From: Frankiaceae bacterium
GTDB lineage: Bacteria > Actinomycetota > Actinomycetes > JAFAQI01
Direction of reading: 5' to 3'
Assembly (NCBI GenBank): GCA_019239875.1
Contig: JAFAZI010000194.1
Coordinates: 1 to 32,563, forward strand
Length of the DNA: 32,563 nt
Shown: one piece after another, positions 11,722-17,832 of the stretch
Numbering within the stretch: position 1 is the stretch's first letter
How the letters are laid out: every line of letters begins with the position of its first letter
The notes under the pieces: generated by a model
Database searches by the model: none
Told to the model about the DNA's origin: nothing
The model's input: only the letters and a program-made list of their open reading frames with translations
Position numbers and translations under genes: made by a program

Positions 11722-11763
11722 CGACCCCTTTCGTCGGCCGCCTGCGGTTCGTCGGGGGTGTGT

Positions 11764-11795
11764 GCTGTTAGCGGTGCCAGAACACCGCTAACAGC
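11764..11795. promoter_or_regulatory. 13-base perfect inverted repeat, possible operator or stem-loop
   Basis: GCTGTTAGCGGTG (11764-11776) and CACCGCTAACAGC (11783-11795) are perfect inverted copies around a six-base loop, CCAGAA. No T-tract follows on either side. The site lies 108 bases upstream of the acyl-CoA dehydrogenase start. TetR-type regulators of fatty acid genes bind inverted repeats with TTAGCG/CGCTAA-like arms, so an operator is plausible; no such regulator gene is in the window. Confidence 0.55.
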
Positions 11796-11834
11796 TCACA
11801 ACCTCACCAGCCTGCGGCTGGCGCGGAACCACAG

Positions 11835-15627: not shown

Positions 15628-16122
15628 GTGCGCGTCTACCTGCCAGCCACGCTCCCGCTGCTCCGGCAGTGGCTGGTCGCCGACGCCGCGGCCGTCTCCG
15701 GACCGGCATTCGCCGTCACGCCGGAGCTGCGCGAGTGGTACTTCGAGGCCGACCTCGAGGAGCTCGAGCATGCGGCGCAGACCGCCGCGGCAACCGAGGC
15801 GCTTCGCCTGATCGCCGCCGACCCGGCCGCCGCACCACGCCGCATCGTCATCGCCGCGGATGTCGACGATGGCGCCGTGTCGCCGGATCCGACCGCCGGG
15901 CGTGCGGCGGTCGCGGTGTCCGGGCCGATTCCCCGCGCTCGGTGGGGCAGTGCGCTGGTCGACGACGAGACGGCCGCTCCCGTCGTACGGTCCGGGGCCG
16001 CCAGGATCACCGCAGCAGACGCCGGCGACGCTGATGCCCAGTTCGAGGTGGACGAGGTCGAAGCGCACGAGCTCGGGTGGTACGCCGTCCAGGAGCTCCA
16101 GGTCTTCGCCCAACCGTCTTGA
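15628..16122 (+). CDS. DUF6912-family protein
   Basis: This 164-residue conserved actinobacterial protein of unknown function starts VRVYLPATLPLLRQWLVADA. The 'MRVYLP(A/L)T' start, the 'LEELEHAAQTAAATEALRL' helix and the C-terminal LGWYAVQEL are the features I associate with DUF6912. It is acidic, soluble and without a signal peptide or known active site. The GTG lies 15 bases after the patatin stop, so it belongs to the same transcription unit. Related proteins are often encoded near secA, and here it is about 11 kb away. Its last five codons and stop lie inside the left arm of a 62-base palindrome, so the transcript folds over the end of the coding region. Confidence 0.75.
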   Translation: MRVYLPATLPLLRQWLVADAAAVSGPAFAVTPELREWYFEADLEELEHAAQTAAATEALRLIAADPAAAPRRIVIAADVDDGAVSPDPTAGRAAVAVSGPIPRARWGSALVDDETAAPVVRSGAARITAADAGDADAQFEVDEVEAHELGWYAVQELQVFAQPS

Positions 16123-16169
16123 ATCGTTGGTTCCGCGACCGCGGAACCAACGATTTGAGACGGTTGGGC
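16108..16169. terminator. 62-base near-perfect palindrome over the DUF6912 stop codon
   Basis: The 30-base arms at 16108-16137 and 16140-16169 are complementary except for two adjacent positions, with a two-base centre. The left arm includes the final DUF6912 codons and its TGA at 16120-16122. There is no T-tract after it (GTAGTGGGG follows). It could be a terminator of the lipid-gene run, an mRNA-stabilising stem, or a mobile palindromic element. The next gene starts 35 bases later. Confidence 0.7.
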
Positions 16170-16203
16170 GTAGTGGGGCGGCGTGGTGGCAGGATGACCA
16201 GAC

Positions 16204-17832
16204 ATGGACGCTGCGACCACGGTCCCGATTCCGGTCAACGAGCCGGTGCGCTCCTACGCGCCCGGTTCGACTGAGCGAAGCTCGCTCGAGGCCAAGCTGA
16301 AAGAGCTGGGCTCGGCTGGGCCGCTGGACCTGACGCTCACGATCGGCGGGCGCGAAGCGGCGGGGCAGGGCGATCCGATCGCGGTGGTTGCGCCACATCG
16401 GCACTCGGTCGTGCTCGGCCACACCTGGGAGGCGACCGCGGCGCAGGTGCAGGATGCGGTAGACGCTGCGCTGGCAGCGGCACCCGCGTGGCGCGAGCTG
16501 CCCTTCGACGACCGCGCCGCGGTGTTCCTGAAAGCCGCGGACCTGCTCGCCGGACCGTGGCGCGACGCGATCAACGCCTCGACCATGCTCGGCCAGTCGA
16601 AGACCTGTTACCAGGCGGAGATCGATGCGGCTTGCGAACTGGCTGACTTCTGGCGGTTCAACGTTCATTTCGCCCGCGAGATCCTCGCCGAGCAGCCGAG
16701 GTCGGCGGCCGGCACGTGGAACCGGTTCGACCACCGGCCGCTCGAGGGCTTCGTGCTGGCCATCACGCCGTTCAACTTCACCTCGATCGCGGCCAACCTG
16801 CCGACCGCGCCCGCGCTGATGGGCGTCCCGGCGATCTGGAAGCCGTCGCCCACGCAAGGCTTCTCGGCACACCTGCTGATGCGGTTGCTGGAGGCGGCCG
16901 GCCTTCCGCCCGGCGTCGTGAACCTGGTCACAGGGAGCGGGCAAGCCGTCAGTGAGGTCGCGCTCGTCCACCCCGACCTGGCCGGCGTCCACTTCACCGG
17001 CTCGACGCCCACCTTCGAGCACCTGTGGCGGACGGTGGGGGAGAACCTGCCGGGGTATCGCAGCTATCCGCGGCTGGTGGGGGAGACCGGCGGCAAGGAC
17101 TTCGTGATCGCGCACCCCTCCGCCGACGTCGACGCGCTTCGGGTCGGTCTGATCCGAGGCGCCTTCGAGTACCAGGGGCAGAAGTGCTCCGCGGCGTCCC
17201 GGGCCTACATCCCGCGCTCGATCTGGGGTCGGCTCGAGGCGGATCTGGTTGCGGACGCAGAAGCGCTCCCGATGGGCGATCCGACCGATTTCTCCAACTT
17301 CATCGGTGCGGTGATCGATCGTCGGGCGTACGACCGGCTGTCCGGCGTGCAGCAGCGGGCAGCCCCCGACCCCTCCCTCACCGTGATCGCCGGCGGCACG
17401 GCCGATGACAGCGAAGGGTTCTTCATCAGACCGACGATCCTGGTGGGCACGGATCCGACCCACGAGGTGTTCACGACCGAGTACTTCGGGCCGATCCTGT
17501 CGGTGTTCGTGTACGACGATGCCGAATTCGACGCCGTGATGGAGCAGGCCGCGACGGCCACGCCGTACGCCCTGACCGGAGCCGTGTTCGCCCAGGACCG
17601 CGAGGCGATCGCGCGGGCGTCGCACGCGCTGCGCTACGCGGCCGGAAACTTCTACGTGAACGACAAGCCGACCGGCGCGGTCGTCGGGCAGCAGCCGTTC
17701 GGCGGCGCGAGGTCGAGCGGGACGAACGACAAGGCAGGCTCGGCACACAACCTGCTCCGCTGGACGAGTCCGCGGGTCATCAAGGAGACCTTCAACCCGC
17801 CCACGGATTGGCGGTACCCGCACCTCGGGTGA
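16204..17832 (+). CDS. pruA: L-glutamate gamma-semialdehyde (1-pyrroline-5-carboxylate) dehydrogenase
   Basis: This 542-residue NAD+-dependent aldehyde dehydrogenase oxidises glutamate semialdehyde to glutamate, the second step of proline (and arginine-derived ornithine) degradation. Length matches monofunctional P5CDHs. Catalytic Cys328 lies in YQGQKCSAASRAYIP and the general base Glu294 in LVGETGGKDF. Further matches to this branch are PLEGFVLAITPFNFTSIAAN, the NAD-binding FTGS stretch and the C-terminal VVGQQPFGGARSSGTNDKAG. ATG at 16204 follows AGGATGA by eight bases. Proline dehydrogenase is not in the window, so the partner must lie elsewhere. The gene starts right after the long palindrome, and its promoter was not identified. 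Confidence 0.95.
   Translation: MDAATTVPIPVNEPVRSYAPGSTERSSLEAKLKELGSAGPLDLTLTIGGREAAGQGDPIAVVAPHRHSVVLGHTWEATAAQVQDAVDAALAAAPAWRELPFDDRAAVFLKAADLLAGPWRDAINASTMLGQSKTCYQAEIDAACELADFWRFNVHFAREILAEQPRSAAGTWNRFDHRPLEGFVLAITPFNFTSIAANLPTAPALMGVPAIWKPSPTQGFSAHLLMRLLEAAGLPPGVVNLVTGSGQAVSEVALVHPDLAGVHFTGSTPTFEHLWRTVGENLPGYRSYPRLVGETGGKDFVIAHPSADVDALRVGLIRGAFEYQGQKCSAASRAYIPRSIWGRLEADLVADAEALPMGDPTDFSNFIGAVIDRRAYDRLSGVQQRAAPDPSLTVIAGGTADDSEGFFIRPTILVGTDPTHEVFTTEYFGPILSVFVYDDAEFDAVMEQAATATPYALTGAVFAQDREAIARASHALRYAAGNFYVNDKPTGAVVGQQPFGGARSSGTNDKAGSAHNLLRWTSPRVIKETFNPPTDWRYPHLG

Follow-up and report, generated by a model that had tools for sequence, protein, structure and literature searches.

Palindrome at the end of the DUF6912 gene

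The DUF6912 gene in the analysed window, a 32,563-nucleotide stretch of DNA from a Frankiaceae bacterium, ends inside a long near-perfect palindrome, and the locus raises the question of whether the gene gave rise to the palindrome or the palindrome to the end of the gene. The initial annotation described 62 bases (16108-16169) and offered both origins: either the end of the gene had been copied, or a palindromic element had inserted and brought the stop codon. The features of the locus are listed below.

15628 to 16122, + strand: DUF6912 gene, 164 aa (Pfam PF21853, E 1.1e-49, residues 1-158); final FAQPS from the element
16103 to 16174, no strand: whole element copy, 72 positions, ends TTWTCGC...GCGAWAA (family covariance model match G000:C58:16103-16174, 79.3 bits, E 2e-13)
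16107 to 16137, no strand: left arm, encoding the DUF6912 end
16120 to 16122, + strand: DUF6912 stop TGA within the left arm; CGA in the family consensus (CpG to TpG)
16138 to 16139, no strand: two-base centre of the window copy, the middle of the family's 10-nt variable centre
16140 to 16170, no strand: right arm, the palindrome's second arm
16204 to 17832, + strand: pruA, L-glutamate gamma-semialdehyde dehydrogenase (TIGR01236, E 1.9e-235), downstream of DUF6912

Analysis of the window revealed that the palindrome is real and that its strict form reaches one base further on each side than first described (16107-16170, 64 bp). The 31-nt arms carry the two mismatches and the 2-bp centre that had been reported, and the palindrome does cover the final codons of DUF6912 together with its TGA (16120-16122). 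A repeat search of the window called the inverted repeat at 16104-16137 and 16140-16173 (34 nt, 91% complementary, 2 nt between), and the palindrome ranks first among the window's inverted repeats. Its RNA fold has an energy of -59.0 kcal/mol, where shuffled sequences average -20.0 (z -14), and its DNA fold gives a z of -13 against shuffles. An Rfam scan of the window gave no match. Elsewhere in the window, a 21-bp inverted repeat (90%, 6-nt loop) occupies a divergent gene gap at 11756-11803; it is a candidate operator and is distinct from the palindrome family.

Palindrome family in the host genome

The window palindrome is one of about 54 near-identical 65-base copies in its own genome, which was searched over 4.15 Mb in 206 contigs. 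BLAST of the 70-bp stretch against this genome found at least 40 places, and an arm pattern search found 48 forward and 45 reverse arms against none for the reversed-pattern control. A total of 48 copies with both arms were fetched. Matches to a covariance model trained on 46 of these brought the count to about 54, among them an older, decaying subfamily with CAAAGC arms. All full arms in the genome occur as close pairs, with no distant pair seen in the 206-contig assembly. One copy (G000:C121:26965) is a hybrid with one main-type arm and one arm of the CAAAGC subfamily, as if arms were individually replaceable.

The family consensus is TTWTCGCCCAACCGTCTCGAATCGTTGGTTY-N10-RAACCAACGATTCGAGACGGTTGGGCGAWAA, a symmetric element of about 66-72 bp with the ends TTWTCGC/GCGAWAA, flanked by T-rich sequence before the stem and A-rich sequence after it. 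Between copies, the two 20-nt arm cores have mean pairwise identities of 0.94 and 0.93; the 10-nt centre has 0.38 and the flanks have 0.36. The spacing from core to core is 18 nt in 46 of the 48 copies, though the letters of the centre vary. Several copies retain the symmetric centre TTCGAGACGTCTCGAA in full or nearly so, and judging from these copies the ancestor of the family was probably a perfect palindrome. The element holds 103 bits of shared information, while about 17 bits suffice to specify 54 sites; therefore, the copies descend from one another by duplication and not by convergence. Covariation between paired positions is modest (39 cells against 25.7 shuffled). Sense-strand mismatches in co-directional copies are as often A.C (20) as G.U (18), and RNA pairing as the selected trait therefore finds no support.

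Placement at gene 3' ends

Analysis of gene neighbours, called with a simple home-made codon-usage gene finder, placed 47 of the 48 copies at a gene 3' end. The neighbours are convergent for 23 copies, co-directional for 24 and divergent for one. Of the 127 gaps of 60 bp or more that served as background in the same DNA, 5 are convergent, 76 co-directional and 46 divergent. Both the convergent excess (23/48 against 5/127, p 4e-11) and the divergent deficit (1/48 against 46/127, p 6e-7) are evident. The stop codon lies within 30 nt of the element in 37 of 47 copies (median about 11 nt), and co-directional copies stand a median of 10.5 nt from the upstream stop against 81 nt to the next start.

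Donated C-terminus of DUF6912

DUF6912 homologues from the taxonomic family and beyond end, directly before their stop codons, in ...YAVQELPHLLH, ...YAVQEIPSLFD or ...YAVQELPDLLAD, with the general form ...QELPxLL (...YAVQELPxLLx at the very end), and no palindrome of the window family was found at these ends. The window protein ends in ...YAVQELQVFAQPS. Its AQPS codons lie wholly inside the arm, the F codon overlaps the conserved WTC at the element edge and the homologues end otherwise; hence FAQPS is supplied by the element. An inserted element that brought the stop, the second of the two origins offered, is supported by the roughly 54 copies and the palindrome-free homologues. The first, duplication of the gene's end, is rejected because the remaining copies stand after unrelated genes.

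In the window copy, both arm mismatches stem from a C-to-T change on the + strand that affects the same CpG in each arm (consensus TCTCGAATC and GATTCGAGA). Read in the DUF6912 frame, each change turns CGA into TGA, at 16120 and at 16156, the former being the present stop. Without the TGA at 16120 this frame next reaches the TGA at 16156 and then a TAG at 16171, at the element edge.

Among relatives, several carry pruA after DUF6912 with a short spacer free of a palindrome. The DUF6912-pruA region of the soil MAG Frankiales bacterium CP_BM_ER_60, the closest named relative, matches that of genome G010. In the relative G001, tandem repeats of GTTGCGAAGCAATGTGACCCG lie directly 3' of the DUF6912 stop.

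Distribution outside the host genome

The family arm was not found in 393 other genomes of the class, and an earlier genome set gave two single matches, each with three mismatches, to a shorter arm pattern. The exact arm pattern was absent from named GTDB genomes, a set that may omit the host's own or very near records. The plasmids and phages searched gave no match and thus no such source for the family. A marginal model match in a related genome (G003:C55:43221, E 0.009) was not convincingly of the same family.

Seven element-bearing gene pairs are syntenic in sampled relatives, and the window family is absent there in all seven; at two of the seven sites a different palindrome or inverted repeat occupies the same gap. 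Genome G004 contains palindromes of TGGCCCAT and GTGGGGC blocks, one of them in the gap orthologous to that of the G000:C146 element. In genome G003, the gap orthologous to that of the G000:C198:39682 element contains an inverted repeat, CCCGAAGTAGCACAC...GTGTGCTACTTCGGG.

Unrelated palindrome families in related species

Genome G003, from the same family as the host, contains two palindrome families of 63-68 bp (A and B) that are unrelated to the window family. Family A (GAGCCCAACGTTGTTGGTCTTTC-N9/10-mirror) has about 38 copies with a centre of 9-10 nt. It is not strictly a 3'-end element, because 5 of the 22 gaps examined are divergent, the others being convergent and co-directional. The GCCCAAC...GTTGG blocks of family A bear a faint resemblance to the window family.

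Family B (GGTGATCTTGACG...) has about 20 copies with a 17-nt centre of constant length, and its GTGATC end often provides the stop codon (TGA). The sister species G008 holds nine family-B copies, in which the outer arm GGTGATCTTGACG is the same and the inner arm has changed yet is still paired. Orthologous genes at G003:C21:8933 and G008:C75:2292 end at exactly the same element-supplied TGA, and a second neighbourhood has two more family-B copies common to both genomes at slightly shifted positions. Two or three sites are therefore shared against roughly 0.05 expected by chance, a figure that we estimated for 9 and 20 copies among about 3,300 genes. Either these copies were retained vertically and changed in concert, or elements inserted repeatedly at the same gene ends. 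In G003, two family-B copies (G003:C56:10990 and 12066), separated by about 1.1 kb, share an identical 17-nt centre and both overlap a gene end, as if a gene and its element had been duplicated locally.

Interpretation of the palindrome family

On balance, the palindrome appears to be a copy of a species-specific, dispersed repeat family of the REP/MITE-like kind, spread by copying and kept mainly downstream of stop codons. The element would have entered the 3' end of DUF6912 and replaced the native last residues, giving the gene its FAQPS and stop, so that it now sits between DUF6912 and pruA. The arms may be kept since the sequence itself, beyond its pairing, is what a protein or the machinery behind the spread recognises. 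When transcribed, the predicted hairpin (-55 to -59 kcal/mol) might mark or protect transcript ends and insulate convergent genes, and copies would persist at gene ends where they do least harm. Counted against this explanation are the centre, less uniform than the arms and unlike what is expected of recent parasites, the modest covariation and the failure of G.U to exceed A.C (18 against 20).

Several known repeat systems come close to the family. REP repeats are short, palindromic and dispersed in convergent or co-directional gaps, with few species per family; they have stems of 5-13 bp in units of 20-40 bp and a GTAG or CGTC end tag, and the CGTC type, surveyed from five phyla that do not include Actinobacteria, is often without a dedicated transposase (PMC3733652). 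The window family is likewise palindromic, extragenic and species-restricted, with about 54 copies of a single consensus in convergent and co-directional gaps; unlike REP, its arms are near 30 bp, it has no GTAG/CGTC tag and the genome has no Y1/RAYT gene. YPAL of Yersinia and Efa-1 of Enterococcus are species-specific structured repeats of about 163-168 bp, in tens to about a hundred copies, that favour the 3' ends of coding sequences (PMC1590033, PMC2267715). The window family shares their species specificity, structure and placement near coding-sequence 3' ends, but is about 66-72 bp long and near-perfect, with a variable centre of constant length and another sequence. MITEs (ERIC, RUP, BOX) are described as non-coding, palindromic and multicopy elements in or beside genes that can carry reading frames (PMC2759123). 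Our copies are also non-coding, dispersed inverted repeats derived from each other, whereas they show no target-site duplication, and no parent transposon with matching ends was found in the 206 contigs.

A search of the host genome for a Y1/RAYT transposase (PF01797) gave no match. Direct repeats in the flanks showed no excess that would indicate target-site duplication; several hundred tests were run, and the highest z, 3.1, was attributed to chance. Copy-by-copy extension of the palindrome into its flanks showed no excess either. Since neither transposase nor target-site duplication was found, mobility is a point that we infer.

Alternatively, though less probably, the family could be a MITE-like repeat that is purely selfish and plays no role in the host. 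Here insertions away from 3' ends would have been lost, the arms would look conserved owing to the youth of the family, and the centre would mutate fast or be remade at each copying. The restriction to one species, the relatives' sites empty of the family and the older decaying CAAAGC-arm subfamily are all consistent with this, and tolerance alone explains the placement. It is opposed by a centre diverged nearly to flank level while the arms remain 94% identical to the consensus at fixed spacing, by family B being kept at the same G003/G008 gene ends with arms changed yet paired, and by the lack of any target-site duplication or transposase found.

Somewhat less likely again is a binding site at the DNA level. 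A putative protein, dimeric or tetrameric, would recognise the repeated, evenly placed CCAAC/GTTGG half-sites in duplex or cruciform form; it could be a nucleoid factor, say, or a roadblock acting between convergent genes. Invariant arm letters, a constant 18-nt spacing between the 20-nt arm cores with variable letters and the lack of a sense-strand G.U preference would fit such a site. However, 103 bits is far above the need for 54 sites, the family is confined to one genome and no candidate protein was found.

We regard a plain DUF6912 terminator, or bidirectional intrinsic terminators generally, as unlikely, even though strong hairpins sit right behind stop codons and are over-represented between convergent genes. 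The T-tract that the initial annotation reported as missing is indeed absent 3' of the window palindrome, the family has an A-rich 3' side, and a U-tract is lacking on either strand. T-rich sequence before the stem and A-rich sequence after it is the wrong order for intrinsic terminators, and a terminator scan shows no terminator-like site at the window palindrome. The stem sequence is conserved across loci, unlike that of ordinary terminators. A hairpin conserved at DUF6912 ends and present nowhere else had been set against the element reading; the palindrome is instead absent from relatives' DUF6912 ends and recurs throughout its own genome. Integron attC-like recombination sites are very improbable and were rejected: although the outer boxes GCCCAAC...GTTGGGC of the consensus fit RYYYAAC...GTTRRRY at both ends and the elements follow stop codons, no integron integrase (TIGR02249) was found above cut-off, the copies are dispersed between conserved syntenic neighbours and not in cassette arrays, extrahelical bases are not conserved, the box spacing is 11 nt and the boxes are missing from family B.

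Beyond the preferred reading of a repeat spread by copying, we tentatively suggest that gene 3' ends in this lineage could be served by fast-turning palindromes, whose species-specific arms change in concert and with compensation across all copies at fixed length and spacing. If true, such a pattern would call for a co-evolving recognition factor or for a process that homogenises the copies arm by arm.

Significance

Species-specific structured repeats near 3' ends are already known (YPAL, Efa-1 and REP; PMC1590033, PMC2267715, PMC3733652). Less ordinary are the variable centre of constant length and the arms at orthologous sites, which are species-specific and paired. Our analysis catches a small palindromic repeat rewriting the C-terminus and stop codon of a gene, and extends the record to an actinobacterial group in which several unrelated families of 3'-end palindromes are rapidly replaced. 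Their arms are conserved, the centre varies at constant length, and paired changes at orthologous gene ends are specific to the species; together these features offer a testable case for the old question of whether repeats of this kind are parasitic or serve as functional parts of transcript ends.
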